From Juglans regia (lineage: Eukaryota > Streptophyta > Magnoliopsida > Fagales > Juglandaceae): a stretch of DNA of 64,000 nucleotides. Positions 4,293-41,000 of the stretch are shown one piece after another. The DNA lies in assembly GCF_001411555.2 (NCBI RefSeq), contig NC_049904.1:29029370-29093369 (forward strand). The letters run 5' to 3'. The notes beneath the pieces were generated by a model. That model did not search any database and was not told where the DNA came from. It worked only from the letters and a program-made list of their open reading frames with translations. Both the position numbers and the translations under genes were made by a program. Each line of letters opens with the position of its first letter. Position 1 is the first letter of the stretch.

Positions 4293-5450
4293 TCAGAAGA
4301 TCTCCACTCCTGGTCCCACTCCCCGGAACACGACGGAGCATTCTGGCAACTCCCCCAGGTCGGCGTAGAGAGACTCGTCCTCCTCCCTCATCGTGAATAG
4401 CATCGCCACGTCGGAGTCTCCACCACTACTCCTCTCCGCAAAAATGGGGCTCTCCAGCACCGTCGACGTCGTTGTCTCCATGTCACCAAACCACCTGAAC
4501 TCGTCGCTCGCCATCAGTGACTCGTCGCCTAGATCCGCGAACTTCTCCTCCGGCGCGGCTTCCTGTTCGGGCTTCAACTTGACGGTTTCGGGCTTCTCGG
4601 GTTTGGACGAAGCTGAGTGGTGGTTCCTCGAAGCCGGCCAGGGATGGTTGTGCTCACAGGAGTAGGTGACAACTAGCATCGTCGGGTCCAACCGGCTCCT
4701 CTCTACTTGTTTTCTCGCCGGGCAGCCCTTTGAGCTGCTGCACCTGTAGTAACCTCTGCCAAACCGAACCATACCATGTTCGATTAATCTCTGGTTCTTC
4801 CGCAGCAAACCATAATTGTGTCCATACATATATATGTGTATGTATATATATATATATTTATACACACACACGTACACACACGCACGAACGAAGAAGAAAA
4901 CATCAGATTCAGTACTGCGGTTACCTGGGATAGGGAGATCCTTTGATGGGTTTCTGACCATACTTCCTCCAAGCCCAAGAATCATAGGGCGGAGTACTAC
5001 TCTCGCCCTTGAGCCGGGACCCTTCTACCTCCTTGATCGGCACCGACACCACTCGTTTATGTATGTCTCGCCTGCTGCAACAAAATCCGGCCATTACGTT
5101 CTCTGTTAGGCTAAAAAATATAAACCTCCCCAAACAAAATATTAGACCCTTTTTTTCCGCCATTTGTTTTGTATGCTTGCGAATTATGCAGTGTGATCAG
5201 GAAGAAACGAAGATTTCATCTGGTGCATGTGATGATTCAGATCACGTGAATCACGAAACAGATGATTGGGAATGTCGAATAAGGCTGACCTTTTTCTTGG
5301 GGACGAGGCGGAAGTGTTCTTCATGTCGTTAAAGATGGTGGAAGGAGGGGACGCATCACCATTTTCTGGGATGGTGTCAGTATTCTCTTCTAGCTCCTCG
5401 GTGGAAGTACTGATCATAAACTGGTTAATGTTGACGAACCGGCCGTCCAT
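4293..5450 (-). CDS. WRKY transcription factor, group IIe, WRKY65-like (3 exons)
   Basis: Exons on the minus strand are 5450-5290, 5071 (or 5074)-4925 and 4755-4293, giving 256 or 257 residues. The DNA-binding domain has WRKYGQK in exon 2 and a zinc finger C-x5-C-x23-H-x-H in exon 3. The intron splits the Arg codon after SPYP, the conserved position for WRKY genes. The C terminus, with an [20 protein letters not shown] motif and a final VEIF, matches what I recall of Arabidopsis WRKY65. The acidic, Pro/Glu-rich stretch after the finger may be an activation region. WRKY proteins bind W-boxes (TTGAC) in the nucleus. The start ATG (5448-5450) lies next to an (AT)n tract. Intron 2 (4756-4924) contains AT/AC microsatellites. 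All three frames are intact. Exon 1 is poorly conserved, so the exact start is less sure than the rest. Confidence 0.9.
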
Positions 5451-13167: not shown

Positions 13168-13700
13168 CTACACATTTTATTTTTACATTATTTTCTTTAT
13201 CTTTTTTTCTTTTATGGACGAATATGATTTTCTTAATTTGATCTTATAGTGAAACTAGCACAGCATTTAAAAAAATCATGTATATATCCTCATTATATTG
13301 ATGATGAAGTGGTAATTTCCATTAGAACATTTCTAACAAAAAACAGAAAATATTGATTTGCTAATTCATATAAACCCCAGTAATCTTCTTCTAAAATATT
13401 GTATGGATTTTTATGGGTAATTGTTGGATTCTCCATCCCTTCTTTTATAATTATACTAATTATAGGTAGCATATAATTCCCCTTGCAGAAAAGTTTTGAT
13501 TTTAGATCATTAATGGTGCTTACAAGAATCAAATTAATACCCTAACAGTAGCTCTTCACAATTGAATATCTATATATATATATACATATATATATATATT
13601 ATCCTTTTTTTGACTCTTCACATCTGATTGTGCACCTTAAAGTGGACATATGCTCCATAGAATAAAGTGATGGTCGGTCTTCCTTTGCACAACTCAGGCA
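12385..13700. other. Gene-free spacer upstream of MIR399 locus 1
   Basis: No protein gene. Two related blocks lie at about 12630-12790 and 12930-13100. They share ATTGGACCA...GCAGCCTCGAGTT, then GAACATGCT and GGATATTC/GGATCTTC. (AT)n runs occur at 13138-13167 and 13570-13600. The blocks may be upstream parts of duplicated MIR399 units (see findings). Confidence 0.5.
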
Positions 13701-13710
13701 TTGTGCCACA

Positions 13711-13740
13711 GGATATGCTTCTTCAAGATTGTTATAAATA
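13711..13740 (+). promoter_or_regulatory. P1BS motif and TATA box of MIR399 locus 1
   Basis: GGATATGC at 13711-13718 fits the PHR1-binding P1BS consensus GNATATNC. TATAAATA at 13733-13740 follows 14 bp later. The hairpin begins about 50 bp further on. The order P1BS, TATA, hairpin is what is known for phosphate-starvation-induced MIR399 genes. An 8-bp degenerate motif occurs by chance fairly often; its placement is the argument. Confidence 0.6.
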
Positions 13741-13789
13741 ATGGGTCTCTAGGACATTATAAGTCTCCAAGCATAACATGCTAGTACCA

Positions 13790-13925
13790 GTGCAATTGCA
13801 TTACAGGGCAGATTCACCATTGGCAGATAGCTACCAAGACATCATGTGGCTCAGCTAGCTAGCCCTTTTGCATTCTTGTTGTGCGCTCTCTGCCAAAGGA
13901 GAATTGCCCAGCAATTCTATTGCCT
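13790..13925 (+). ncRNA. MIR399: MIR399 precursor hairpin, locus 1
   Basis: The 3' arm at 13891-13911 carries TGCCAAAGGAGAATTGCCC followed by AG, the miR399 sequence apart from its last bases. The 5' arm near 13806-13827 (GGGCAGATTCACCATTGGCA) is its partial complement, with a bulge and two mismatches. Flanking bases also pair (GCAATTGCATTA against TTCTATTGCC), extending the stem as in plant precursors. miR399 moves in the phloem during phosphate starvation and represses PHO2/UBC24, a ubiquitin-conjugating enzyme that lowers phosphate uptake. Mature position on the 3' arm and hairpin size fit the family. Expression cannot be judged here. Confidence 0.85.
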
Positions 13926-14925
13926 TTTTTCAGCTCCATTGTTGTCTCTGGCCCCGAGATGTATGCATATATATATGGCAATTCATGTCAAGGCACACAC
14001 ATTCAAAAAGTTGAAATTTCATGCATTTTTTGTTTCAGATTATTGGAAGTACTGTAAGTTAAAGAGTGATGAGTTCCTCATGCAATATTAGGGTAAGCAC
14101 TTTCAAGCAATTTCCTGTGATCTCATCGTAAGGTATGCATCTGCTATTTTTAATTATATATTCACGAAGAAAGATTAATGTGTTTTCTGTATGTTTTAAG
14201 ATTGTGCATGCATGCATGGCTTTCGATTATAGTTCCATTTAAAGCACCAAAAATTGAAAAAGCATATGTTGCATGTCATGATTAATACCATGCATGATAT
14301 TCAATCTTCACGAGGAATTGAATATTTTGCTTAATTTGCTGCAGTTGCGAATAAAAAATGGACACTCATTACAGCTTGATCATCAAATTAACCAGAAAAT
14401 GCTACTCATGTGCCCGACCCATTTTATAGAGGCTATATATCGTACAAATTAATTGTTTGACACCAATATATTAAATTCTGTTTGTGAATAACGTAGATCC
14501 ATATTAAATAAAGTAAGATTTATGTTCTCTATTTCTCTCTTCGAATTTTAAAAAATATTTAAATTAAAAATTAAAAAAAATCTTAATCTCATAGGTGCAG
14601 AAGAAAGAAGCTGGGTGCATGGGTACCGCGAATACTGAATATACGATACTCCTAAACAATCTATCTGATAATTAGAACAATAATTCTAATTAATTTAAGT
14701 TAGTGTACAAAAGTAGCAACTTCCTCGGAAAGAAGGATGGGAGATCAGTCGAGGCAGAGCAGACATTCTCGGATGTAACTTGGAGGCTTTGGATCCGGTG
14801 GTGCAAAGCTCGGATGGAGGACAGGTATGAGACGACATAGGAGGTGTACTGGCGGAGTGTCAAATTCTGGATTATTAAGCTAAGTGAGAAAATCACTGCC
14901 AAGAAGACATTGGCCTGGCATGACG
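13926..14925. other. Gene-free spacer after MIR399 locus 1
   Basis: Nothing coding recognised. The first ~100 bp may belong to the primary miRNA transcript. The rest is AT-rich. Confidence 0.4.
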
Positions 14926-14929
14926 AACA

Positions 14930-15405
14930 AATTTTGGCTGCTTTAAATGTGACCACAGCAAGGTTAGAAGGTGCAGGCCGACACAGATTGTGACGTGTTG
15001 CGTTTTCAGCTAGTTCCATTGGCCACGGCTCAAGCAACTCTGCTGAGTTCATGGCACTTGTTCATGGTGTGAGACATCTATGTAATTTGGGATACTCAAA
15101 AGTGGAAATGGAAATGGCATGGATTCAAGCACCGTTGTTAATTGGATTAAAAGGTCCTCATGTCCTATATGGTATCTTGAAGACCACTGGGATGAACTTA
15201 TACATATGCTAAGGGATATGACTTTTACCATATATTCGGCATGTGTATAGACAAGGAAACTCTCCTGCAGATTATCTTGCGAGATTGGGATCAGAGGAGT
15301 GTGATCGATGCTTTGTGGTATTCAGTGGCTTCTGTCCCTCTCATTCTTCGGGGTTTGATTCGGACTGATAAGTTGGAACTACCTTATATAAGGAATGATC
15401 ATTAG
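14930..15405 (+). pseudogene. RNase H-like (RVT_3) remnant of a non-LTR retrotransposon
   Basis: Plus-strand frames read SSNSAEFMALVHGVRHLCNL, then a shifted frame with DSSTVVNWIK, then YRQGNSPADYLARLGSEE and RTDKLELPYIR. These are the typical pieces of the RNase H domain that closes plant LINE ORF2-type or RVT_3 proteins, in the right order. At least one frameshift lies near 15110-15125, and no upstream reverse transcriptase is present. It is a decayed 3' fragment lying against the inner edge of the CACTA right end. Confidence 0.75.
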
Positions 15406-15429
15406 TTTGTTGTTTATTGTTTATTTTAT

Positions 15430-16033
15430 TATCGCTGCAAAAAAAAAATCGCTGCAATTAACAATTATTTTGCGGCGATTTCTTATCGCCGTGGAAATCA
15501 AAGCAATGTATCCGAAAATCTGATGTTGAAATTACTGTTCATCCATTTGCGGCGACTATTTGACCTTTTATGGCGCTTTTGTATCGCCGCAAATAATATT
15601 AGTTTTGTAGCGGCATTTTAATTGAGCGAATGGGAAAATTGCCATAATAGCTAGTTTTGCGGCAAATAAAAAGTCTTTTAGAAAATTTAGGCCTTTCCCA
15701 ACGATTCTAATATCGTCGCAACAAAAAATATCACTAATAGACATTATATTCAACGATTTCTAGGTCCTCGTTTGCTTTCCATCTCAAATTTTTGAACTGA
15801 TGGAGAAGAAATTACATTTTACTTTTTGCAGCGATTTTGATATCATCGCAAAACATTTTGTCGATTTGAGTAAGCGGCAAACATTTTCATGGAGTAGAGA
15901 AACTTAAGCAACAGATACTATTTGGGGCGAAAATATTCTCCGTATTTTCACCGCAAGAGCATATCTAATAAATTAAATGTTGTTAGCGGCGAATTAAATT
16001 TAGACCACCCGAAAAGGTGATTCCCTTGTAGTG
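15430..16033. mobile_element. CACTA-type right terminus with sub-terminal repeats
   Basis: An array of GCGGCGATTTCTTATCGCCG-type mirror units (15432-15990) that ends in CCTTGTAGTG at 16024-16033, the inverse of CACTACAAGG. With the left end at 8509 it could delimit a 7.5-kb element. The 3-bp flanks (ATC left, TGG right) do not match, so the pairing is not proven. Confidence 0.75.
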
Positions 16034-16473
16034 TGGAGTCGATTTTTGTTTTCTTGATGTTGTTTGTTCTTTCCACGGAGTCCTTTGTTAACAACGTTTC
16101 GATCGTGTAATAAAAATAGGAGGTCCTGCCTCTTGGTTTCATTGAAAAAAAAAATGTGGGACAAATAGCCAATACTACTGAAAGGACCTTCTTTGAAGAG
16201 AGGACCGGCCTCTTTGAATAGAGAACTATTGCGTCTACATATTTTTTTTACAAAATGCAAGTTATTCTTTGACAGCTTGCATGTTTAGAAATAAAAATAA
16301 AAAAATAAAAAAATAAAAAAGACAGACATTCTCGAGTTCGAAGAGCAATCTTTAAAATTTACAAAATGAAATTAGATTACTAATTAAAAAAAATCAATCT
16401 GCTTAATTACAACACTTTCATCATGTCTTTCCTTTGGTTTTTTTTTTTTGTGTCTCAAAAGTAATATTCATAT

Positions 16474-16511
<38 letters not shown>

Positions 16512-16838
16512 CACACACCATGCAGCCACTCAAATTGGACATTTTTTCCTTTTTGAGAAAAAAAATTGGACATATTGAGCTATTATTAAAACTAGGAACT
16601 TGCCCCTCGAAGAGTTCCACTTGCTCGAATCACGTTCAGCTAGACTCATATATGCCTTTGAGCTAGTGCTTAATGCACTGGCAAGATTAGCTTAGGAAAC
16701 AAATTATACACCCAACAAACTGATGAAGAATAGATCAGATTTTTTTTTTTTTTTGATTATTCTAAGTGGAATTCGATATTATAATTTGGACAAAGGCCGT
16801 GACCATTAAGCAATGGACGAGAGCAATGATAGAAATTT

Positions 16839-16877
<39 letters not shown>

Positions 16878-16987
16878 TCTTCCTTTTTTTAAGAAAGGAA
16901 GGCAAGATTCATTTGAAAATTCTATATTTTTATAGTAGATTCTATTTTTTTCCCTAAAAGAACTACAAAAGATTTGCAAGCCTTAAA

Positions 16988-17032
<45 letters not shown>

Positions 17033-18545
17033 ATAAATATACACCACAAGAATAAAAAACAAGCATAGAACCCTGTACATAAATGCTGTCGTCTCGAGTT
17101 TCGATCTGCGTACAAAATATATTTTGGGCCCATTTAATGGTGCTTGACAGCAATCAAGAAAGGAAATTCACATGCATAAGATAAAGAAATCAAGAACATG
17201 CGCTTGGATCTTCCATGGAATTAAGCACCAGGCCATCGCGTCCTGTTGATCGTGAGACATGTTTATAATGTGAAACCATATTTCAACTCGATGCTGCTTC
17301 TGAAAATTACAGTACTTTTGTATGACCTTTGAAGCTGAGGTTGGGACACAATAGTTATATACAAGGAACCGAGAGTTTTCTAATCATGGATTGACTAAAG
17401 AAAGTCGATATGCTTAGAATACTTATCTGTCAGGATTTTGTTCGAAAAGATGTCCATATTGATGTAGTATATATGATGCTGCTATTCTAGCTAGCATATT
17501 GACAAGACAGCCCACATCACAAACCATCGTAAATTCGAACCACGACTAAGTACCCCGATACAGTCAATCAGTTGGGTTGGTTTACATTCATTTTCACTCA
17601 AGAGATCAAGTACTACAATCATAACAAAGTTTCACAAGGAAACCTATAAAATGATATGATTTTAATATAATATTAGATCTACTTTACACTCAAAATAGTT
17701 GTACAATCTAAATCATGTTAATTTATGAATTTACTTTTATAGAATCTCTAATTTGTGGTTAAAATATTTGTCTTCGCTGAATATTATAAGCTAAACTCAC
17801 AATCAAATATAATGAAGTGATACAAGCTCAATATATATAGAAAAAGAAAATGATTTATGTATAGATAATTTAAAGCATGTAAGTCTCGTGTAAATCCTCT
17901 GAAAAAAATACAATTCATCTAAAAAAATCAATTTAATTTGTTAAGAATATTGCAATTTTTTTTAAAAAAAAAAAAAAAAAAACTGGACAAACTTGCATAG
18001 AAAGCATCTGTCACTATTTATAAAACAAATGCATCGTTCCATGTCCGGATATGCTTCTTTGATGCATAGATCTTGTATGACAGGTTTGCACGCAGTCAAG
18101 TAAGGAAGTAAAGAAAAGTTATCTTCATCATTTTCACACCACACATGACTACGTATACAGTATTACATAACTTTTTTTTTTTTTTCCTCTTACCAAATGT
18201 ATAAATGAATAGATGATAAACAAAATATCTCAATTAGTTTAAGAATAATAAAATACAATAAAAAATTTTAAAAAATAAAAATAAATATGATGTATGATGT
18301 GTAGAGATGATGAATAGCAAAACTTAAAAGTTAAATATGTGCTCTCAAGACTCGAGCAGAGAAAAAAAACTCAGTAGAAATTCTAAATGCATAGATCTTG
18401 CAAACATTAACTCACGGCCTGTCGCTAAGTGCAACAACATTCTTTGTTTTTAGGACCTCTTTTGCACAAGTTTTCTTTGTTGTTCTTTTGCGCCATAAGC
18501 GATGGAGTATCCAAGCAACGACAAGTACTACAATTATAATATATA

Positions 18546-18576
<31 letters not shown>

Positions 18577-18622
18577 GAGAATGATTTTTTTTCTTTATAC
18601 AAGAGAAATTCGCACTCATATT
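16034..18622. other. Gene-free AT-rich stretch
   Basis: No gene. (AT)n runs occur near 16478-16506, 16845-16875, 16991-17036 and 18548-18576. A block at about 17085-17235 (GTCTCGAGTTTCGATCTGCG, then TCAAGAACATGCGCTTGGAT) resembles the repeated blocks upstream of MIR399 locus 1. Confidence 0.5.
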
Positions 18623-19260
18623 GTAAGGGGATTTTTCCCTCACTAATAAGCCTACTGGGCGCTCGGCAGAGAGTAATGGGCTTTGCCATGATATTCGGTC
18701 AGGGCCCAAACTTGCCCACGAAGCAACTCGTCTGCAAGGGAAAGTAAGCAATGATAACTGATGGGATAAACAGGCCTAACACAACTCGGCCACACTTTGC
18801 TTATGGGAACTCGTACCTGGTAGAATGGCAAAAATGGAGAACCTTTGATCTTCTGACAAGATGGTATCGACGGTCCACTAAAGACACTAGCAAAGTCAGG
18901 CAAATAGGAAAACCATGTCACATTAATGACACTACTATCCGAGCAACACGCCACATTAATGGCGCCGTCATAGAGACAAGCCACATTTAAATGACTCTGA
19001 CAAAATGAACAGTAAAAAAGACATGAATTCCACAGGGCAAGATCTGTCCCCCTAGACTCTCGGTATAAATAGCAAATTTCAGGTACAAAAAAGCTCTCTG
19101 GCCTCTAGACTCTCTCATTATTTACAAACTTTCAAAATACTTTACTGATTTTGGTATCGAAGACTCTCCGGCTCCGAGGGAGCCCTCTCCCAACTTATTT
19201 CTTCTTTGTTTTCGCATGCCCAATTTTGAAGACCTGAGTTGCTGTAACCTAACCCAAAAA
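18623..19260 (+). mobile_element. LTR-like repeat block A (solo-LTR candidate)
   Basis: Starts TGTAAGGGGA. It carries repeated ACATTAATG(G/A)C units, a TATA box in GGTATAAATAGC (about 19062-19073) and a CT-rich tract. It ends in a GACTCTCCGGCTCCGAGGGA region like the 3' part of plant Ty3-type LTRs. A diverged relative lies at 27826-28530. No internal retrotransposon genes adjoin it, so it is probably a solo LTR. The right border is approximate and no target duplication could be fixed. Confidence 0.55.
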
Positions 19261-19430
19261 AGTACGAAACATGACGTTAACACATATCATCCATCAGAAG
19301 CGCACGTTTCAGATAGAAAAGAAGCATATATAAACAACTCCTTGAAATATAGACCGATGGCCAATAGAACATGCTCAAGGATCTTCCGTGTCTAAATTGT
19401 TCTAGATTGTTTTTGTTTTTTGTTTACTGT

Positions 19431-19678
19431 TGTTAAGATATAAAATAAATAATAAAATTTATTTCTTTTCATCTACAGCTTAAGTATCAGAGTTGAGATC
19501 CTGAGTTCGAATCCTGACTTTACATTCTACTCCATTTGATTAAATGTTTCACGTATTGCACCCACTCATTAAATGAGAGTTTGGCCTACATGTGGAAGAT
19601 GTGTTAAGATATAAAATAAATAATAAAATTTATATTTTTTCATTAACTTAAACTTTTGAGAGAAGTGAATTTTATAAC
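19431..19678 (+). mobile_element. TRIM (miniature LTR retrotransposon), degraded
   Basis: TGTTAAGATATAAAATAAAT occurs at 19431 and again at 19602, marking two short terminal repeats. After the first comes TATCAGAGTTGAGATCCTGA, which fits a primer-binding site for initiator methionine tRNA. The internal part is ~100 bp and non-coding. The 5' repeat looks shortened. A better preserved relative sits at 41753-41998. Confidence 0.6.
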
Positions 19679-19693
19679 TATATTATCACCTTA

Positions 19694-19731
<38 letters not shown>

Positions 19732-19861
19732 AAAAAAATGAAGGACGGACCACTGTTTCAAAGCTGCTTTAGAATTATAGATCTAAACAAATTTTTGTCT
19801 CTCTCGCTCTCTCGATTGAACCACAAGCCATAAAACTAAAATTGCATTTGATGCGTTAATG

Positions 19862-20105
19862 TTGTGCTGTTTGAAAGATGAAATCACCTCAATTCATTTG
19901 AAATTGATTATTAATGAGATCTATTATCTTTTCAACTTCTCATAAAAAGCTAAAACACGTCTCAACCTATTTTATACTTTCAAATATATATTTCAATCTA
20001 TTTGCAATATTCAAACATATCTCAATATATAGAATTTACCAAATACTACTATTCATAAATCAATTCAAATAATCTAATATTACTTTAAAGATCCAAACAG
20101 AGCCT
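19862..20105. mobile_element. MITE copy (copy 4)
   Basis: The left end GTGCTGTTTGAAAGAT faces the right end ATCCAAACAGAGCCTTA. The interior has CTCAATTCATTTGAAATTGA and TACTACTATTCATAAATCAA, as in copies 3 and 7. No coding capacity. Confidence 0.65.
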
Positions 20106-20337
20106 TAATACTATTGATCTGGATCCTACAGATCAGCCGAGCTTCAGTACTGATGAAATTAGGTTTTGTACGAGGATGCGTTAAAAATAAGCTGAATAAA
20201 GTGAGTGACCCTTTCAATATTGTTCGACTAGCTAGGCCGTATATATACATCGACTACAGAGCAAAATGAGTCCTATCTTGTAGAATAAATATACATGGTT
20301 TGTGATGATCGATCATTACTCCATAGCATTAACGCAT

Positions 20338-20479
20338 GCAGTGTAGGTGAATTACCGAGCATCTCCTGTTGGCAAGCTGTACTCACACTACATCATTTAC
20401 AGAGAAAATTTAGGTTTTCCCCGATGAAGAGGAGTGCTGGTTGCCAAAGGAGATTTGCTCAGCAATTCTAATGCACTTC
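20338..20479 (+). ncRNA. MIR399: MIR399 precursor hairpin, locus 2
   Basis: The 3' arm at 20442-20462 reads TGCCAAAGGAGATTTGCTC then AG, close to miR399 with an altered 3' end. The 5' arm at about 20356-20376 (GAGCATCTCCTGTTGGCAA) complements it with a small bulge. The basal stem also pairs (AGTGTAGGTGAATTACC against AATTCTAATGCACT) and is homologous to locus 1, including the shared CAGCAATTCTA following the mature region. No perfect P1BS lies just upstream; a related GAGGATGCGTTAAAAATAAG occurs near 20173. The strand follows from the intact 5' half of the mature sequence. Confidence 0.82.
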
Positions 20480-21300
20480 TTCCCATCTTATAATTAAATG
20501 ATCAACGAACTCCTGTGCAATTGGCATCCATGCAAAAGATCGTTTTTTTCAATTAATGCATGTTTGGGTACTGCGAATTCACATGCTAACCACATACAGC
20601 GTTAATTAGTTGGGTTTTCTAATATATGCAGATGTACTCTGTGCTTTTCTATATTATTTGATGCATTCATGCATGAAGACTAATTAGAGAGTCAAGTAAT
20701 TAGTTCTCAAAGTCACTGCACACACAATTAAGAGACGCAATGCTCACTTATAATTCTTGCTTAATTGATATTCAACCCATTACGCACGATCTCTTTAAGA
20801 GTGTATACATTTTTGAATTCAGCATTTATGAGGTTAGAACCGTCTTCCTGTATAATTATTCTCTCGTTGCTTGTTTATGTTTTTCTATATGCTAACGTCT
20901 TTCGGAGCAGATATATGCACTTCGCCGCCGGCCAGCCAATTCGACAGGTCTCTAAATCTATCACCGCTATCGTGCTCCTCAGGCTTTGCCACCCATTTAA
21001 TCAGGAGGCATCTTCATAATTAGTTTGGGTGATCTAATTAAGTAGCTAGGAGTGTGCGGAGATCTGCTATCCAAAAATCTTACTCATGTCAAAACAAATC
21101 ATGCATGCCTAAGTACTTATTGGTAATTAAGTTATATTTACTGTTGGGTTCTTGAGCTGGACGTGTGCATATGACAAACCTAAGACAACAGCACCCCCGA
21201 AATGAATGATAATAGCTTTCAAGCGTGAAAGAATCGCCCATGCAGGGTCGACCTCCAAGTTCATATTCTCTAATTCTTTGAAAAAAAACCAGATAAGATA
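20480..21300. other. Gene-free spacer
   Basis: No coding region or named repeat recognised between MIR399 locus 2 and the LINE fragment. Confidence 0.45.
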
Positions 21301-21301
21301 A

Positions 21302-21505
21302 TTATATTATTAATGGGATTAGAAAATACGAGTAAAGATGTCCCACACATGCTTGAGCATGGCAGCCTTGGACCAGTTCTCCAGTCTTAATTGTCAACCC
21401 AAGGCCGCCCTCCTTCTTAGGCCAGCATACTTTTTCCCAAGTTACTTGAGCTCCTCGGGGATCACTAGTAGAGTCATCGTCACCCTTCCAGAATAAGGGA
21501 CTCAA
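21302..21505 (-). pseudogene. LINE reverse-transcriptase C-terminal fragment
   Basis: The minus-strand frame reads FWKGDDDSTSDPRGAQVTWE followed by KVCWPKKEGGLGL. The VxWxKVCxPKxEGGLG motif is typical of the segment after the RT domain in plant non-LTR retrotransposons. About 45 codons are recognisable; the rest of the element is absent. Confidence 0.7.
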
Positions 21506-22083
21506 GGTTTGCTGCCAGTCTATTATTGGAGGGAGAGGAACTAGCCGTACGCTCTATGGATCAGGTAAAGCAAGGAAACTGGTGGTTGTATTGATGAAAA
21601 CCATAGGAACCATTAGAACAAAGGTTAAGTTGTTCCAAAGGTATCCCAGATTCTATAGAAAACAGAATTTATTGGGGGTTTGTCGACAGTCGTTTTCTGG
21701 TACAAACGATGATTATTTTGCTCGCATGCATGGATATTTGGCTTGATACTGGAGTTTGGTTGCTTTGGTTTGCAAATGTGTACGTGCTGGCTGCTTTGCT
21801 TTGCAGGTACGTACCCGCATGTAGTTGCATTTAACTGTTCTAGCTGTTGCTTGGTTGGCTCTCTAGCTATTTAGGCTGGGCTAGCTACGCTTAATTTGTT
21901 GGTGCTGTGGTGTTTCTTTTATAAATTAGTCGGGCTGGTATATAAGGCTTGGCATATATAGGGTACTGTTGCATGTAGAGCTGATAAATATGTTCTTGTT
22001 TTCTGCCCCCTACATCACGTACCTTGAGTCGAGAACGTAGTGCATGTGTGCTTAATAATTAAGCGATGATCACAAAGAAGAAA

Positions 22084-22193
22084 GGTAGTAGTTGAATTGC
22101 AGGGCAATTCTCCTTTGGCAGAAATCAGCACTCATGCAAATGCATGCCCAACTTTTCGGCCAAGGGAGAATCGCACTGTTATTCTTTTCTACC
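22084..22193 (-). ncRNA. MIR399: MIR399 precursor hairpin, locus 3 (minus strand)
   Basis: Read on the minus strand, 22120-22100 is TGCCAAAGGAGAATTGCCC followed by TG, identical to the canonical miR399 I recall from rice and other plants. It is on the 3' arm. The 5' arm (22178-22158) reads CAGTGCGATTCTCCCTTGGC, pairing along its length with few mismatches. The stem extends to GGTAG/CTACC at the base (22084-22088 with 22189-22193). The plus-strand alternative would put a four-mismatch miR399 on the 3' arm and has no P1BS upstream, so minus is preferred. Two P1BS motifs lie 5' on this strand. Confidence 0.88.
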
Positions 22194-22247
22194 ATCAGGT
22201 TTTCCTTTCCCACCATTCAAATCTGCTTGTCTTTGTAAAACATCCCT

Positions 22248-22326
22248 GGCCTCTTTTTATTCTGCATGCACGATCCGCACATTACAAGTGCATATTCCAT
22301 GAAATTAAACGAATTGTGGCATATGC
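22248..22326 (-). promoter_or_regulatory. Two P1BS motifs and TATA-like box of MIR399 locus 3
   Basis: GCATATTC at 22290-22297 is the classical P1BS form, and GCATATGC at 22319-22326 also fits GNATATNC. Between them and the hairpin, the minus strand has AATAAAAAGA (about 22249-22258) as a TATA-like element. The spacing mirrors locus 1. Confidence 0.62.
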
Positions 22327-22899
22327 CCAGGATCATTCCCTTTATATCTTCTCTTCACTTCTTCTGTAGCCATCATATATGGTCCCCCTTCCATTAATAT
22401 AGCTTTGATCTTTCAATTATCTTTTTCTCTCTCTCTCTGCAATGCATACTTTAAGACCAGTTTATATAGAGCAAAGGAATATAGTTGTGGGTTTTCCAGG
22501 ACAGAGATGTTCACATGCAAAATCGTTCTTGTTTTTCCTTCAATCATATTTTGTTATATGTTTACAATTATTCTCAACACATTCTACTTAAGCTGTTATT
22601 TTGAAGAAATGTGTGCATGCTGGGGTTGGCAAAGTTACATTAATACACGCACACACATGTAGCAGATAAGGTACGTACACGAAGGCAAGAGCGTGCATGA
22701 GTTACTAATGGATAGAGCATGAGGAATAGGAAAGATGGAAAGAAAGCTGTGAAGAGAACTTGTGGATGGAACTAGTACCAAATAAAAACCTTATTTCGAG
22801 TGCATAATCGTTAAGTTCTCATTCAACCAAACATAATTACATTCTACAACTTGTCTGAATTATAAAATCATTCCTCTGAGTGCGGATGCACAGATGAGA

Positions 22900-24062
22900 C
22901 AGTAAAAAAAATGCGAGCAAAAGACGCATAAAAAACACAGAAAAAAAAAGGCACAGGAAAAAACGAACAGTAAAAGAAATGCAGAGGAAAAATGTACAGT
23001 AAAAAAAAAGCATAAAAAAGCACAGAAAAAAATGCGGAGAAGAAAAACGAACATAAAAAACGTATGTAAAAAAATGCACAAGAAAAAATGTATAGGACAA
23101 AACGCATAAAAAAAACGCACAGAAAATATGTACAGACAAAAACGTACATAAAAAAACGCACTTAAAAAAATACAGAAAAAAACACATAAAAAAAGGCATA
23201 TACAAAAACGTACTGAAAAAAACGCACAGCTAAAAAACGTACAGGAAAAACGCACAGCTAAAAAACGTACAGAAAAACGCATAAAAAACGCACGAAAAAA
23301 ACGCACAGAAAATATGTACAGACAAAAACGTACATAAAAAAACGCACTTAAAAAAATACAGAAAAAAACACATAACAAAACGCACATACAAAAACGTACT
23401 GAAAAAACGCACAAAAAAACGCACTGGTAAAAAACGTACCGAAAAACGCATAAAAACGCACAAAAAACGTACGTAAAAAACATACAATAAAAAAACGCTT
23501 TTAAAAACGCACAGGAAAAACGTGCAGTAAAAAACGCATAAAAAACGTACAGAAAAATGCACAGGTAAAAAACGTACAGAAAAAACGCACAGGTAAAAAA
23601 CGTACAGAAAAGGTAAAAAAACGTATAGAAAAAACGCATAAAAAACGCACCGGAAAAACTCAGAGATAAAAAACGTACAGAAAAACGCACAGGTAAAAAA
23701 CGTACAGAAAAACGCATAAAAACGCACAAAAAAACGTACGTAAAAAACGCACAATAAAAAAACGCTTATAAAAAACGCACAGGAAAACGTGCAGTAAAAA
23801 ACGTACAGAAAAAACGCAAGGTAAAAAACGTACAGAAAAGGTAAAAAAACGTATAGAAAAAACGCATAAAAAACGCACGGAAAAACTCAGAGATAAAAAA
23901 AAGTACAGAAAAACGCACAGGTAAAAAACGTACAGAAAAAACGAACAGGTAAAAAACGTACAGAAAAGGTACAAAACGTATGTAAAAAACGCACCGGAAA
24001 AAAACGCAGAGATAAAAAAAACGTACAGAAAAGCGCATAAAAAACGTACACAAAAAAAACGA
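22900..24062. repeat. A/C-rich minisatellite, ~1.15 kb
   Basis: A degenerate tandem array built from units such as AAAAAACGTACAGAAAAACG, AAACGCACAGGTAAAAAACG and AACGCATAAAAAACGCAC. The period is mostly 10-13 bp, with higher-order repeats: one segment near 23130-23225 recurs near 23300-23405, and another near 23600-23700 recurs near 23840-23930. The long open frames on the minus strand (Phe/Arg/Cys-rich) arise from the repeat and are not genes. Confidence 0.92.
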
Positions 24063-24374
24063 TTCCTGAATCAATACTGGCTGCTGCCCGCGTTAATTAT
24101 CTTCAGGCAAAGGTGGCCAGTTGTTTGATACTGATAGTATGGAGAAGGAATATGAAAATCAAATTAAATAAGACAAATTAAAGGAGGCGGCCAAGTGTTC
24201 CAAACAAAAATCCGTTTCCAGTCAATATAAAGATCAAAGAATAAAAGATGTGTGTCAAGCACTTCGATCGATCGTCTTCATTAGAGAGGACAGTGATGGC
24301 GAGAGGGAAGATCGAACTGGGACCACGAGAACATGGAGCAAAGAGAATGGAACCTCTTTAAAGGAATTGTGCTG

Positions 24375-24450
24375 GAATATCCTATATTTTTCTTTCCCGG
24401 CGCCCGGCATATCCAAAATGCTGGTGCGAACCATGCATGTAGGATAAAAT
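24375..24450 (+). promoter_or_regulatory. Two P1BS motifs and TATA-like box of MIR399 locus 4
   Basis: GAATATCC (24375-24382) and GCATATCC (24407-24414) both fit GNATATNC; the second is the inverse complement of the locus 1 motif. A TATA-like GGATAAAATTAA begins at 24442. The hairpin starts about 90 bp downstream. This favours plus-strand transcription. Confidence 0.58.
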
Positions 24451-24540
24451 TAAAGGCCATATTATTGGATTACTGTTGCCACTCGAGCATGAGAGTTCAC
24501 ATGATGACCGGAAGTGAAGCATGCAGATGGATCTGTTGGG

Positions 24541-24654
24541 TTGATGAATAACAGTGCAGTCCTCCTTTGGCAGAGCCGCATGACAGAGAGAACATGCGCA
24601 TATTGCATTCGTACTTTCTGCTTTGCCAAAGAATAATTGCCCTGCCATTCACCC
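24541..24654 (+). ncRNA. MIR399: MIR399-like precursor hairpin, locus 4 (variant)
   Basis: The 5' arm CAGTGCAGTCCTCCTTTGGC (24552-24571) pairs with the 3' arm GCCAAAGAATAATTGCCCTG (24625-24644). The basal stem GATGAATAACAG/CCATTCACCC also pairs. On the plus strand the 3' arm gives a miR399 variant changed at positions 9 and 11, next to the slicing site. On the minus strand the other arm gives TGCCAAAGGAGGACTGCAC, which keeps the miR399 5' half. P1BS placement supports plus; sequence conservation of the 5' half supports minus. Either a diverged functional copy or a decaying one. Confidence 0.65.
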
Positions 24655-24699
24655 GCGCATGTATATTGTAATTTCATGCCACCGGCTTCATGAGCATCA

Positions 24700-25799: not shown

Positions 25800-27240
25800 T
25801 AAAAAAAAAAACCGGAGTAAGGACCTCCGTAATTTATTGCTAAACCCCCCCTTTATGTTAGAAGAAAACCATTACAAAACCCCCTTTAAGCCATCAACAC
25901 CAACCCAAAACAAAACAAAACAGAAAACTCAAAAAACATTACAGAACCAACGCAGACTATACCAGCCGTATAGTGGGAAGACCAATTTTTTCAAGACACA
26001 GAATGCATTTGAGGAGAGGCTCCCAAACAGACTACCATTGCTTACTAGTACCTTCCACCCCCAACCTTGCCAAATAATCCGCAGATTTATTCCCTTCCCA
26101 GAATATATGAGAGAAGTGAGTGTTAAGGCCCTGTAAAATTATCATTACCTCTTCTAAAAAATCCTCAAGATATCACGTTGCACATTTTTTTTCCCCTTCA
26201 GCCATTGGACTACCAGCAAGGAATCAAGCTCAACATCAATATCAATTATTCTCATCTCTTTTAACCAACCGAAAACCATGCAATAACCCCATCAACTCCG
26301 CATAGTTGTTAGTGCCGATGCCCAGAGCTACCGAGGAAGCCATTATGATGTTTCCGTCTGAGTCCTGCACTACGCCCCCTGCTCCTGCTAATCTCGAATT
26401 CCCTCTAGAAGCACCATCTACATTCAATTTTATCCTTCTTGCAATTGGACGTTGCCATTGAACCAACCGAGGTAACCTCCACTTCGGGACCTTAACAGGA
26501 ACCTGAAATTCCTGTAAAATGGCTATATCTCTCACCGATTGCATCTTAGTTGACTTTAACTTTTCTCCAATCTTTGCAATCCAATGCGTCAGTTGCAACC
26601 AGACCTGATGACTCGAATTCTTCCTCCCTTCCATTCGAGCTCGGCACCTCCTCAACCAGAGAAGCCAAGTAATAACTGCAGATAAAAGCCCAAGTATCTG
26701 CCCCATTTGCGAACTCTTTGTAGCCTTCATGAACCACATATCAATTAAATGCCTCCATGTTGAGGCCGATACACGGCCTAGCCCCACCTGGGCAACAACT
26801 CGCTGCCACACTTCCTTTGCAACCTTACCAGATGCAAGAACATGATCTAGGTCCTCGTACCCACCTGTCAAGCAACAATCACATTTTGACACAATTGGAA
26901 TCCTTACTGACCGCAATTTAACATCCACACTCAGTGAATTATTAAGAGCTTTTCACATAGTAACATATATATTCTTTGGGAGACAAGCATGCCACAACCA
27001 ATCTGCCCATCGAACATTGGAAGCACATACTCTAACACAGTTTCATGCACTCTTGGAAGAGAATTTCCTATTCATGTTATCCATCCATACTAACAGATCT
27101 TCCCCGGCCATCTCTGTTTTTGCTCAAAACTTCCAAAACCTCAGTAGCTTTCTCCTCACCAATTAACTGAGTAATCAAACCCACATCCTATTCATTTCCA
27201 ACTCGGCAATCTTTAATATTCAAATTAGGACTTTCCACAA
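25800..27240 (-). pseudogene. Non-LTR retrotransposon (LINE) 3' remnant: zf-RVT and RNase H
   Basis: On the minus strand the 3' part of a LINE coding region can be followed with frameshifts. It has a zf-RVT zinc-binding segment (WHACLPKNIYVTM-like, then CDCCLTGGYEDLDHVL), a variable linker, and an RNase H domain starting KLNVDGASRGNSRLAGAGGV with NYAELMGLLHG. After a frameshift near 26240 it continues as ELDSLLVVQWLK, and near 26085 as EGNKSADYLARLGVEG. The longest open piece is 228 codons (26242-26928). Several stops lie in 26950-27200. No complete reverse transcriptase is present. The 3' end near 25800 abuts an A-rich run. Confidence 0.85.
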
Positions 27241-30566: not shown

Positions 30567-31259
30567 ATGGACCCAGAGGAGTTCATAGATCTCTTTGATT
30601 TTTACTGGTTCGGCCTCAAAATCTTCAAGAAACAACTACCAAATCTACAGAATTCATCCGACTTCGAAGCAAACACAGATCATCAAATTCAAGAAAACCC
30701 GCGAAAATCACAGATTTCTCGCGTCCCAACCCTCCATAGAAGGGCCCTGAGTGACCAATTGAGCTCCAAAGCAAGCTTCAATTGCGGTTCTATGTCACTA
30801 GATACAGCCCTTCTCTCACCAAAGCTCCGTACCATCCATTCTGGAAAAGAAATCACGGAACCGGAGAAAATTAAATCTACAGGTCTTCAAGTATCGTCCA
30901 AGAAGAAGGTCACAGGTATTAGAAAGAAGAGAGGCGAAACAAAGAGCCTGTCTGCCCTTGAATTTGAAGAGCTAAAAGGGTTTATGGATCTGGGTTTTGT
31001 TTTCTCAGAAGAAGATAGGAATTCAAGCTTGGCTTCAGTCGTTCCTGGGTTGCAAAGATTTGGGAAGAAAGATGAGGAAGAAGATGCTGTTGATGAATCT
31101 GCAACTTCAAGGCCCTATCTTTCTGAAGCTTGGGAGGTTTTGGATAGAAGAAAGTCACAAAACTCATTGATGAATTGGAAAATCCCTACCTTGAGCGATG
31201 ACATTGACATGAAAAATAATCTGAAATGGTGGGCTCACACCGTTGCTTCCATTAGATGA
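30567..31259 (+). CDS. DUF1685 family protein (single exon, 230 aa)
   Basis: An uninterrupted frame from ATG 30567 to TGA 31257-31259. The conserved DUF1685 core is seen as LSALEFEELKGFMDLGFVFS (about residues 131-150), SLASVVPGLQRFG after it, and near the C terminus RPYLSEAWEVLDRR and MKNNLKWWAHTVASIR. The N-terminal half is Ser/Lys-rich and variable. The family is plant-specific and of unknown biochemical function; I make no claim beyond family. Length, single-exon structure and preserved motifs suggest a working gene. The MDPEEFIDLFDFYWFGL start, with aromatic-rich residues, is typical of some members. Confidence 0.9.
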   Translation: MDPEEFIDLFDFYWFGLKIFKKQLPNLQNSSDFEANTDHQIQENPRKSQISRVPTLHRRALSDQLSSKASFNCGSMSLDTALLSPKLRTIHSGKEITEPEKIKSTGLQVSSKKKVTGIRKKRGETKSLSALEFEELKGFMDLGFVFSEEDRNSSLASVVPGLQRFGKKDEEEDAVDESATSRPYLSEAWEVLDRRKSQNSLMNWKIPTLSDDIDMKNNLKWWAHTVASIR

Positions 31260-33587: not shown

Positions 33588-36074
33588 TCAGAACATATTC
33601 ACACGAAAAAACCATGGGAGCACAAAACCTATTACCAGGCATGCCATCAGAAAGTTACAGAATGGCTGTCCACGCCAACATCCTCGACCCCTGTTTGAGG
33701 GGTTACTACTTCCACCTATGGATCTCCTTCCATTCCATTCCTCCATAAATCCGTTATCCCCAACACCAGTAATATTTTTTGCAGTCTTACCACATATTTC
33801 ACACAATCTGCATGCACAAATGAAAGAATGAATCGGTGTAAGTAGTGAATTCTAACACTAGCTTCTTGTTCAAAGCACTTTGCCATGAGTCCATCATAAG
33901 TGAGATAATTTCAGGATACATCAGTTAATCATAAAACTAGATTAAAACTCAGGAACTTGAGTCACGATCAAAAATTAGTTTTCCAGTCATTTCAGAAAAT
34001 TTTTAACTGCTCCCTTCATACACATTTGGGTGCACCAGTGTGTCAATCTGATTAACAGATCATTATTGTACTACATGACCAATGCATTACATAGAAGAGT
34101 ATCTTGATTTGTAGGTATACAAGTATATTAAATGCAAGAGAGGACAACACTTGTAGAAAGAGCATTGCATGATTTACAAGAATGGAACGAGAACAAATTG
34201 TCTTTATGTACAAATCCATTTTAACTGACTATAAATTACCAAAAGGTGGTTGAAGGGTTTCATGCATACATTTTATACAACATCATGCAACATGGAACTC
34301 TGCTTAGAAGAGACAATGGCAATAAAAATCCAAAAGTAAACAGTACCAATAATTTAAATATTAATAGAAGAGGCGAATCTATGATATTTAGAGGCTCCTT
34401 CCCAAGACCTCTTACACGAGTCATTGAGAGTTGAAGCCCCTCAAGTAGAAATAGGCCTCTTCTATAATTGATACTGTGAGAAAGCATATGCCCCTTTTAC
34501 CAATGATAAAGTAGCAAAGAAGCATTACACTAAGATCAGCATAGTCTATGCTGTCATGCTTGCATCTTTATAACTCAATGCTTCATAATTATTCCAAGAA
34601 ACTAAATCATACTATACAATTTAGAAGTTCATCCTAATTACAGTAAAGTATGAGTTGTTTTGATGTTACAAGCTAAGTATTTTGGATGACGACACTGCAA
34701 CAGATCTTATTCCCAATTACAGCAAAACCCCAACTAAACAGGTGATGAGCGAGAAAGGCCCCACTCAAAGAAAGGCGGAAATTTAGAGAAAAAAAAAGGC
34801 AGAAATTAAAGATCAATGTCTAAGATTAGAAATTAGTAAACACAAGAAAGACAGTAAGATTCTGAATCTTGGATGAAAGGGAGCACCAGTGAATAGATCG
34901 CAAAAACTCAGCCTTATGACATGCAAATATGCAATCTCAACACCCTCAAATGCCTTTCTTAAATTATTCACAGCTTAATCAACAAATTTTCACCTTTAAA
35001 TCTGACATTTTTAATGAAAAACAAAACACTAATTCTTAAGCCTAATGAATTAGGGCAAGATAAGTGGGGAGAATATCTTGTATTGTAATTACATGCCACA
35101 GGATCTTTTAAGGTCAACGTCTTAATCAAGTGGCAGCTTCTGGACCTTGTTCTCGAAGTCCAAACTTAAGAAAGCAAAAAAATGGAAAAAAAAAAAAAAA
35201 TCAACGGACAAATCAAGCATTAACCGTCAAAGGAAGTATTATCAAAATAAAGAACACATAAGAAGACGGTCAAGGTTGCTAATTTGAGGTCAAATTCAAA
35301 CACTAACATATTATATTTTCCCCACCAAATTTGAGCAAAACAAAAGGGGAGAAACGAATACCTGTTCCCTCTTATCTTAAACCATGCTTCGGCACAGTAA
35401 CCATGCGCAATGCCAAGTTCCTCTTTACACCCGCAACCGAGCTGAATTAAATCCATCATTGTCATCATATTAACATCACCAGTAATCCTTACAGTCACAT
35501 GAGATGATTGCTCAGATCCCAAATGGCAAATCCTACAAACCCATTCCACATCCAGATTCTCAACAAACCCTTTACCGCTGCTGCACTTCATATCAATCAC
35601 ACACGAAGTCTTCTCTGGTTCAGACACCGTTTTATTCACCTCTTTGGTAGATACCTTGCTCAACACCGGTTCGCTAATTCTTGCTTCCAATCCCCTATCA
35701 TCTCCACCAACACCCAGAGCCTCATTTGAATTAATGACAATTACAATTTCAGGCACAATCCCACCACCCAAAGTGCTCGAATCTTCATTTGCCCCTCTAC
35801 CAACTTCATGCGGTACATCACTGCCACCACACTGATCAATGTCCTCCTGATTGACTACTTGTTCGTGTCCGTTCATTATCACCTCACTTGACCCCAACTC
35901 AGTACCCAATGCCTCCAAAGCTCCATTTCCTCCAGTAACACATGCAGAATCCCTCTCCTCTGAATTCAAGGAAATCATAGACTCAGACGCCACCCCATTA
36001 ACCGAACTGCTAGAATTCTCACTCCTCCCTCGATCAAACTGACCCGCTAGTACCGTGTCCTCCTCCTGATCCAT
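33588..36074 (-). CDS. RING-variant (RINGv, C4HC3) membrane protein, 2 exons
   Basis: Exon 1 is 36074-35362 and exon 2 is 33807-33588 on the minus strand (310 residues, intron ~1.55 kb). The N-terminal ~180 residues are acidic and low complexity. The zinc domain starts WVCRICHLG, continues LGCGCKEELGIAHGYCAEAW and crosses the intron into KIRGNRLCEICG, giving the C4HC3 pattern of RINGv (MARCH-like) E3 ubiquitin ligases. Near the end FLMACLVIGFVLPWFF is a likely membrane segment, then VNMF and stop. The Arg codon is split AG|A across the intron. The start chosen is the first true ATG (MDQEEDT); the codon two places upstream is TTG. In plants this group is annotated as RING/FYVE/PHD zinc-finger proteins. 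The substrate is unknown. Confidence 0.88.
33808..35361 (-). other. Intron of the RING-variant gene
   Basis: GT at 35361-35360 and AG at 33809-33808 (minus strand). AT-rich, with no embedded gene or family repeat recognised. A poly-A run lies at 35189-35201. Confidence 0.7.
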
Positions 36075-36860
36075 CACCAAACAAAAATTTCTCCACCACT
36101 ACGTCGAATTTCCAAACTTTCTCACAAAAACCACCAGCAGTATTATTGTCTCTATATGCATCAAAATTGAATAAGCAACATTGATCTCTATGAATAAGAG
36201 CATGGACAATGTAACCAAACATAACGTGTCTAAACCTACTCTTGGTAATCACAACACAGTCAATTCAAGCTCATTAACAGTTAGCACATTGTAAGCTCCA
36301 AAAAGGTAAAGTACATACAGATCGGAATCCAAGAAACCAAACACCCCGAAAAAGAGCTCCAATCAACAGCTAAGATATGAAAATCTGAAAAATAAAATAA
36401 CATTAAAAGTGGGAGATCGAGATTTCTCTCCACTACCAACTGCAACAACCGTACTAAATGCTCTCTGCGTGTTTGTTAAAAAGAGATTTCAATTATTGTC
36501 ATTGAAAAAGAATAAAAAAGAAGAGGGTAGTGTGAGGTAAGGTGAAGAAAGGGCTTGAATTGGAATGGATGCGTTACTTCCGTTTCGTTCTCGAGAGAGA
36601 AGCAGGGGATTACTGTTACTGCAACCGTGCAACGCGTTTTTTCGCTTCCATTGCCTTTTGAGTCCTAACAAATTTCTGCTCTTTTGGGGTTTTCGGGCGA
36701 CGTTTTGATTCTTGAATGGACAAAGTACCAGAAAACCTGTGTGAGTGCATTTTTCAGATTCATTTTATAATTAATTAGTTATTTATTCTTGCCTTCTTTT
36801 CTAACCCAAAAAAAATTATTTTTTGAATCTGATTTGTATTTTATGTCCCAAATTATTAAC
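36075..36860 (-). promoter_or_regulatory. 5' UTR and promoter region of the RING-variant gene
   Basis: Non-coding sequence 5' of the start on the minus strand. A CT-rich tract lies near 36590-36600 when read on the minus strand. No specific element assigned. Confidence 0.35.
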
Positions 36861-38024: not shown

Positions 38025-41000
38025 TCACCGAGGTCCAGAAAGCTCCATTGCTTCGATTATAAATGAAGATTCTTGATGAGCATCACTGTTAATTCTGGAA
38101 AAACTAGAAGCCCTTGCCTCACAAAGGTTGGTTCCACTTTGTGAATCCTCTGTATATCCTGACTGCTCAACAAGACCTTCCAAGACCTTCAAAACTTCCG
38201 ACATCTTTGGCCGGAGGTTGGGATGCGACTGAGTACACTGCAGAGCCACCTCTACTACTTTCTCCAGCTGTAGTGCATTGAAGCATTCCCTTAGATCCCT
38301 ATCTACTAGCATTTCCAGCCTCTTCTCCTCATGCAATGTTCTAACCTGAATTGTTCAACTAATATTTAGATGCAAAAACTGATGCCCAAATGCAAGATAA
38401 AACATTATCTTATGCAGCTTCGACACTTACAGAAGGGATGAGAGACAATTTAATTTTTATGGAGTTGCTTTGGAGGAATCTATCTCATAAAGACAAAAAA
38501 ATATATACTAAACTACGTGAAGAAAGAATAAAATCTTATACAAATTGAAAATTGGAAGAAACTTATGTACCGGACCACTTGGAAAAAAATCCAAAATACG
38601 GGCAAAGAAAAGTGTAACTCATGCACCTCATTAATCAGTAAACTATGCAGTAAGACCAAAGACATTTCACATGATTCTGCCATGACTATAACAAATATAC
38701 TGAAAATAAAAAATCTACTCACCCAGTCAAGAATCATCCCTTTCTGAACTTGACCATTTCCACCATCTAATGTCTTTTGCCCTGTTATGAGTTCCAACAG
38801 TAGTATGCCAAATCCAAAAACGTCTGTTTTTTCAGAAGATTGTCCAGTCGAAAGATACTCTGGGGCAATGTGTCCTACTGTGCCACGAACTGCAGTAGTG
38901 ACGTGTGAATCCCTCTGGTCTAACAGCTTAGCAAGACCAAAATCCCCAACTACAGCTTCAAAACTTTCGTCAAGCAAAATGTTTGCAGCTTTGACATCCC
39001 TGTGAATTATTCTTGGATTACACTGTTCATGCAAGTATAGAAGCCCGCGGGCAGCTCCAACCGCTATCCTCATTCGTCTGTTCCAATCCAAAGTGGGCTT
39101 TTCTCGACGAGTGTCTACCAATAAGAGGCAAGCATTTAGGAATCAGCAAGAGGAATAAGAGAAAAGCTGCAGTTTGGTATAGCTTTGATTGAAACAAGAG
39201 CGCATAGATGATATAGATTCCAAGTCCAGGGAATTCAAGATTGAAACCATGAATGAGATATTGTTAACTGACCAATTGTTAAACCGCATGCATTTTGAAA
39301 ATGTGATGCAACAACAAAACTTAAAGGTTTCTACATTGATAACGACTTTTTCGTACCATAAAACTGATATTCAAAAAGGCTTTAAATGAAACCGCATGAG
39401 ATATCTATTACGTGTTTCCTCTAGAATAATTCAAATCGTTATCTTAGGGATGATCATTTTCTGAAATAATTTTCAAGGGGAAAAAAGATTCTCACTCACT
39501 GAAAAGATCAGTAACTAAAAGGTTGAGCTTTCCTCAAATATTACAAATTACAGTTGAGAAGCACCATTTTGAACAAGTTCTTTCACAGAGAGAGAGAGAG
39601 AGAGTGAGATAAGCACAGCAAGCCAATATGGAACACACCTCTCAAGCGGTCAGCAACACTCCCATTTGGCATATAAGGATAAACTAGCAACCTTTCATCA
39701 GAGGACATACAAAATCCATACAAGCGTAAGAGATTTCGATGCAGAGCCAAGCCAATCATTTCAACTTCAGTTTGAAACTGCACTTCTCCCGTGTAATTTG
39801 GATCTTTCAGCCTCTTGACAGCAACCACTGACCTATTCGGAAGATATCCAATATAAACCACTCCAAATCCACCTTGCCCTATGATGTTTTTGGGACTAAA
39901 ATTTCCGGTGGCATTTTGCAGTTCACGAAACGTAAACCTCTTGAGTTGACTAATATCAAATTCATAATCTTGCTGCACTGAAAATATCAATTTATGAGCA
40001 AATTTGAATCCTCATAGCTTCTTACAATCCCAGTCATCTACTTGCTTGATGGAAAATGCCTTAGTTTAGGAAGTACCATAAGATGTAAAGAGAAGCCGAG
40101 ATCTGTTCCAATGCACCCAACAGACAAGCAGCATCACAGAAACCACAAATGCACAACTGATGCTAACAGCAACAGAAAGCACCCACTGATGATGACTACC
40201 GACTTTCTTAAATAAACCTGTATCTGAAATTAAATTATCATGCATATGCATCCATATCGATTCAAGAAATCACTGGCAAAATGTGTTTGACAGTTTGCAT
40301 CAACAGACCATTTATCGGTTGTGAAACACCCATGCAAACTTGTGTTGATGAAGAAGTGCAAAGAAAGTTATTCCCTGCAATACTGCAATGAAAAACATGA
40401 AAACCGTCAAACAGCCAAAATATCATATCAGGAAGAATTTCAAAAAAAATTATTTTTTTGAACCGTCAACAAAAAATGAAGAAAGCATTCTTGCCAGTGT
40501 AAAAAAAATAAAAATTATCAACTGCTTAGCACAACATGCTACGCTAGATTTTTTTTCCCTCTTGGAGGAGGATTGGCCCTTTCTGCCATTAATAAGCCTT
40601 CCTACTGGGGAGCGCAAAGAGAAGGGCTTTGATGGATGAGCTCAACATTCTGGGATATATACATAGATTTTCTAGTAAGGAGATTGCATAAATATACATA
40701 CATAAATACATATATATATATATTGCTACTATATTGGTTTAGCACTAACATCATTTTTCTTGTTTAATTATTTCTGATAAAATAACACAGATGCGTTCAA
40801 AACAAACTCCCCAAATGATGGTTCAATGCATAGGATCACTTGCATATCAGAAACTAAGTAAAATCAGTAAAAACAAATTATGAAGCCAAAAGAGGACCTT
40901 ATATAAAGGCAATAGAATGGCATGATCTTAAAATATTGTGTTGGAGCAGGTGAAATAGCTCAACTAGTATGTAAGCCCGCACCTAAAATAAGTCCATTGT

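Follow-up and report, generated by a model that had tools for sequence, protein, structure and literature searches.

Does a 64-kilobase (kb) stretch of Juglandaceae DNA hold a genuine cluster of neighbouring MIR399-type microRNA (miRNA) genes, and would every copy in it act alike? In other plants miR399 is a phosphate-starvation signal, part of a pathway that runs from PHR1-type factors through miR399 to repression of PHO2 under starvation. A first-pass annotation of this stretch, which is the window analysed here and to which all positions refer, had listed four loci with inverted miR399 arms, named below L1 (plus strand), L2 (plus), L3 (minus) and L4 (plus). We consider them a genuine cluster of four neighbouring MIR399-type miRNA genes, with a probability of about 0.85 for that reading as a whole; the hairpins, their near-canonical 3′ (3p) arms, an enrichment of upstream promoter boxes and the sharing of promoter sequence are directly observed. 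The main twist of the cluster is L4, and the apparent age of the site is also of note.

Motif scan, Rfam search and folding recovered all four loci where the first-pass annotation had placed them. The 18-base miR399 pattern TGCCAAAGGAGANTTGCC, with up to three mismatches allowed, has five matches in the 64 kb, a count that includes both arms of L4, against 0.11 expected, and none of 100 dinucleotide shuffles reached five. Against the Rfam MIR399 model (RF00445; curated gathering score 57 bits), the L1 hairpin (13794-13921, plus) scores 69.8 bits with an expectation value (E) of 1.9e-14 and the L3 hairpin (22090-22188, minus) 66.8 bits (E 1.5e-13), so that two of the four loci pass; the L2 hairpin (20345-20472, plus) scores 49.3 bits (E 2e-8) and that of L4 (24542-24654, plus), which is probably impaired, 56.7 bits (E 1.4e-10). 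Since these last two lie below the cutoff, they are termed MIR399-type rather than Rfam members. As expected of near-palindromic stems, every locus also matches the model on its opposite strand (L3 53.5, L1 50.5, L4 47.3 and L2 43 bits), and the Rfam scores favour the strands proposed in the annotation at all four. Folded over the stretches that it had delimited, the assigned strands form stem-loops at -49.2 (L1), -52.6 (L2), -47.1 (L3) and -43.3 (L4) kcal/mol; shuffled sequences were equally stable in 10 of 500 cases for L1 and in none of 500 for each of the other three.

Plant miRNA hairpins are generally held to a rule of no more than five mismatched positions between the miRNA and its star strand, and all four duplexes comply, L4 exactly at the limit. 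The predicted 3p miRNA of L1 (13891-13911, plus; star 13806-13827, 22 nucleotides (nt)), that of L2 (20442-20462, plus; star 20357-20376, 20 nt) and that of L3 (22100-22120, minus; star 22156-22176, 21 nt) each leave 3 of 21 positions unpaired, and the predicted 3p RNA of L4 (24624-24644, plus; star 24554-24574, 21 nt) leaves 5 of 21 (9-12 and 18). The 21-mers, taken from the conserved UGCC start, were compared with seven distinct grape miR399 sequences in PMC2831844. The L3 product is identical to grape miR399a/h, that of L1 differs from miR399a solely at position 20, and that of L2 has two differences from miR399d (positions 20 and 21) and likewise two from miR399e (18 and 20). Relative to miR399a, the L4 product is changed at positions 9 and 11, so that its centre (9-11) is not intact; the annotation's remark that the arms differ in their 3′ half therefore holds for L1, L2 and L3 and fails for L4, whose differences are central. 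Best target scores were 1 (L1), 1.5 (L2), 0 (L3) and 4 (L4), the targets being complements of four grape miR399 sequences. L1, L2 and L3 can be assigned to a strand by their canonical 3p arm. In U spelling the L3 21-mer is already in print, in 18 of 21 papers listed for it, as are, in U or T spelling, the first 19 bases of the L2 3p sequence, in 6 of 12 listed (five on grape, one on cassava); a search of the literature text in U spelling found none of the 21-mers predicted for L1, for L2 and for L4 on either strand.

The motif GNATATNC, which we take to be a P1BS-type box linked to PHR1, occurs 23 times in the window. Five of these boxes lie within 200 base pairs (bp) upstream of the hairpins (one at L1, two each at L3 and L4, none at L2) and none within 200 bp downstream, whereas four 200-bp windows placed at random held 0.28 boxes on average and at least five in 2 of 100,000 placements. 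The L1 box is a motif match at 13711-13718. The promoter piece of L3 (22247-22326, minus) carries boxes at 22319 and 22290 followed by a block (22247-22280) common to L4, and that of L4 (24375-24459, plus) carries boxes at 24375 and 24407 followed by the corresponding block (24424-24459). Together with motif count, Rfam scores, duplexes and the promoter comparison described below, these boxes support the MIR399 identity, clustering and strands that the annotation had assigned.

A separate repeated motif, GAACATGC-N4-GGATNTTCC, is found at five places (12759, 13070, 17194 and 19367, plus; 27782, minus) and, at up to three mismatches, is confined to 12.7-27.8 kb of the window. Its core resembles a P1BS box and is broken in four of the five places; the chance estimate for it, 6 matches against 0.40 expected, is too favourable because the motif was defined after its copies had been seen.

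The promoter regions also bear on how the cluster may have arisen. L3 and L4 stand head-to-head about 2.35 kb apart; their paired P1BS boxes are separated by 29 bp (L3) and 32 bp (L4), and a shared block of 34-36 bases is placed alike after each pair. Under strict gap penalties (36 pairs of 9 segments, 300 shuffles per pair), this upstream block aligned with a score of 89, which none of 300 shuffles reached but which barely exceeds the best of them (85), and it counts mainly because its position relative to the P1BS pair is identical in both promoters. Their head-to-head arrangement with a common promoter block makes L3 and L4 look like the products of an inverted duplication extending over the promoter. 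Between the two promoters lies an A-rich tandem array (22900-24061; Tandem Repeats Finder; 689 of 1162 bases A), about 1.16 kb of AAAAACGCAC or AAAAACGTAC-like units.

A segment upstream of L1 (12868-13092) has a second copy at 16988-17216 (plus), after which no hairpin follows; the two align with a score of 140 (none of 300 shuffles, maximum 98), the alignment starting in masked letters. A P1BS box at 18047 has 13 bases in common with the L1 box at 13711, and repeats sit between the 17-kb copy and L2. On one reading, which is not proven, this copy would be the promoter of L2 displaced by insertions. A whole-window Rfam scan up to E 1 yielded no fifth MIR399 locus, including near this promoter copy at 17-18 kb. 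No convincing alignment was found for the remaining upstream pairs of the four loci (L1/L2 19 of 300 shuffles, L2/L3 15 of 300), and in barley, too, the authors report no high similarity among the upstream sequences of miR399 genes (PMC3878733). The L2 upstream sequence aligned with one control segment (ctrlD) at a score of 260 (none of 300), which we attribute to a dispersed repeat, and with another (ctrlA) at 103 (2 of 300). An earlier comparison with loose gap penalties (19 pairs, 60 shuffles), the only run in which downstream flanks were compared, was set aside because a control pair, L1 upstream against a control segment, beat all 60 shuffles just as L1/17-kb and L3/L4 did. The proposal in the annotation that the copies originated by local duplication is thus supported, best for L3/L4 and for the L1 upstream segment; as the site appears old (see below), the copies need not all be recent local duplicates.

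What, then, would L4 do? Because its changed positions 9 and 11 lie on either side of the 10-11 bond, it is expected to slice poorly. In barley, cuts in PHO2 were mapped to positions 10-11, and the barley miR399k, which has a position-11 mismatch like that of L4 and low expression, was considered perhaps incapable of cleavage (PMC3878733). Transcription of L4 from the minus strand would instead yield a near-canonical miR399: the 3p arm on that strand stays canonical as far as position 11, and its score of 3.0 against the grape miR399a complement is better than the 4 of the plus arm; the minus duplex leaves three positions unpaired against five on plus; its fold is slightly more stable over the stretch delimited in the annotation; and antisense reads have been reported from barley MIR399 loci (PMC3878733). 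We nevertheless find this quite improbable, as the Rfam score is higher on plus (56.7 against 47.3 bits), both arms of L4 plus align with those of L3 minus, only a plus reading of L4 puts its P1BS pair and the block it has in common with L3 upstream, and with longer flanks the plus fold becomes the more stable.

Several observations weigh against a cluster of four genuine genes read on the assigned strands. L2 (49.3) and L4 (56.7) fall under the RF00445 gathering score of 57; the L1 fold beats its shuffles only moderately, with 10 of 500 as stable; no P1BS box lies within 1500 bp on either side of L2; the plus-strand RNA of L4 probably cannot cut normal miR399 sites and would be a poor or inactive slicer; and the split of five boxes upstream and none downstream assumes L4 on plus, becoming three and two if it is on minus. 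In addition, over the annotated stretches all four loci fold slightly more stably on the opposite strand; when the flanks are extended, the assigned strand is the more stable at just two of them, L3 and L4. Energy therefore cannot settle the strand, and fold energy was dropped as a strand guide.

Some of the same points would fit a cluster in which L1 and L3 alone work as genes, L2 and L4 being functionless copies in decay: both copies are under the Rfam cutoff, L2 is without a nearby P1BS box and L4 is altered around the slicing bond. This is possible, although on balance we think it unlikely, since the L2 3p sequence lies near that of grape miR399d, which is listed as a member of the family in its own right (PMC2831844), the L2 fold is more stable than all 500 of its shuffles, and L4 retains both its promoter boxes and its stem. 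That the hairpins are instead repeat-derived inverted sequences resembling miR399 by chance is scarcely credible: repeat fragments do occur near them, but what similarity was detected between the loci falls mostly in the hairpin arms and in pieces of promoter, and the motif counts and Rfam values exclude chance. Chance resemblance was accordingly rejected, with five matches against 0.11 expected and E values of 1.9e-14 to 2e-8.

If the four loci are indeed MIR399-type genes, each hairpin would be its own transcription unit. Phosphate starvation would lead PHR1-type factors to act at the P1BS boxes and drive transcription of the hairpins, the transcripts would be diced to 21-nt 3p RNAs, and those of L1, L2 and L3 would guide slicing of PHO2/UBC24 mRNA; the inverted duplication of L3/L4, promoter included, would have been followed by the changes at 3p positions 9 and 11 of L4. 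From sequence we infer the transcription, processing, phosphate response and targets of the four loci. Expression of the miR399 family in Juglandaceae follows from small-RNA sequencing in walnut, which reported jre-miR399b (PMC6099546). Elsewhere, miR399 rises strongly in the phloem sap of rapeseed and pumpkin at low phosphate, and in Arabidopsis grafts it travels from the shoot into the root (PMC2268993). A far more speculative thought, to which we give very little weight, is that L4 could be a regulated, slicing-dead miR399, induced together with L3, its head-to-head sister, by matching P1BS promoters, and would bind the same PHO2 sites, or the same Argonaute, without cleavage and so damp the miR399 response inside the cluster; if true, this would be a miRNA-side counterpart of IPS1 target mimicry. 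L3 and L4 in any case form a natural pair in which to see the effect of losing the slicing centre while the promoter boxes stay.

Because local MIR399 clusters are already on record for barley and, by citation in the same paper, for rice (PMC3878733), the cluster is of a known kind. In maize, 13 of 13 clusters of miRNA paralogs are syntenic with sorghum positions (PMC2773440). The barley copies lie about 2000 nt apart, similar to the L2-L3 and L3-L4 spacings, but the two barley clusters are same-orientation pairs, whereas the present one has four copies, one of them inverted (PMC3878733). Grape has five MIR399 genes on chromosome 10 (Vvi-MIR399a, d, e, f and h; PMC10931670) and resembles the walnut-family cluster in having several members on one chromosome, in the presence of both a/h-type and d-type mature sequences, and in a WRKY65-named gene on the same chromosome (VIT_10s0003g01600, by its RefSeq name; PMC11172563); the likeness is read at the level of the shared chromosome, and grape has two further genes with the RefSeq name WRKY65, on chromosomes 7 and 12 (PMC11172563). 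Among the matches listed on Juglandaceae miR399 or MIR399 clusters, no title or abstract reports this cluster, and the available part of a hickory miRNA paper deals with tandem miR166 and mentions miR399 once, in a reference (PMC5708078). With little found in the literature on miR399 in the walnut family, the window adds, for a family of nut trees, a map of four MIR399-type genes that gives their strands, predicted mature RNAs and likely control boxes.

How old is the site? The cluster is flanked by a WRKY65-type gene (4299-5450, minus; three exon pieces aligned to Carya P0121, with Pfam WRKY on the last exon) and a DUF1685 gene (30567-31259, plus; Pfam DUF1685). The WRKY65-type protein is 94% identical to that of Carya over its last segment, and many of the matches listed are named WRKY65; the DUF1685 protein is 90% identical to a Carya illinoinensis and 87% to a Juglans regia sequence, the best named among the best 120 of 849 matches. 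On the strength of these two proteins the window is assigned to a tree of the Juglandaceae. Neighbour pairs were picked by eye among the matches listed, locus numbers being read as gene order. On that basis DUF1685 and WRKY genes have neighbouring numbers in Carya illinoinensis (I3843_10G059400 and 059500), Vitis rotundifolia (PVL29_013075 and 013077), Tetracentron sinense (HHK36_001706 and 001705), Pistacia atlantica (Patl1_10470 and 10468) and Hevea brasiliensis (P3X46_020175 and 020172). Juglans regia is less clear, with best matches F2P56_006467 and F2P56_006449 and a second DUF1685 protein (69%) at F2P56_006447, and in Liquidambar the numbers among the matches listed are not neighbours.

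A comparable neighbourhood appears in Arabidopsis, where the number of MIR399A (AT1G29265; PMC11754937) stands next to that of WRKY65 (AT1G29280; PMC4792144, one row of which says WRKY20), adjacency again being inferred from locus numbers; there is one MIR399 gene at that number, against four copies beside the WRKY65-type gene here. Arabidopsis MIR399D (AT2G34202; PMC11663554) and WRKY35 (AT2G34830), which belongs to the WRKY65 subgroup (PMC4792144), are by their numbers not close neighbours. Together with the grape genes on chromosome 10, these positions point to the interval between WRKY65 and DUF1685 as a likely, though not proven, old MIR399 site. That such neighbours recur at probable MIR399 sites of other plants also counts in favour of the four loci being MIR399-type genes.

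The remainder of the window encodes a Ras/Rab-type GTPase (1919-2377, plus), a RINGv protein (35220-36098, minus), exons of a receptor-type kinase (38513-40011, minus) and a protein kinase exon (48312-48662, minus), all identified with Pfam. The first-pass annotation had called the surroundings of the cluster transposon-rich; repeat and retroelement fragments were indeed found, and richness as a whole is only partly borne out. These retroelement and dispersed-repeat fragments lie at 14994-15209 (plus), 18910-19199, 19430-19570, 19889-20075, 26242-26952 (minus), 53073-53693 (minus) and 55745-56134 (minus), and comprise an RVT_3 relic below the cutoff, repeat pairs within the window, zf-RVT/RVT_3, copia-type RVT_2 and gag.

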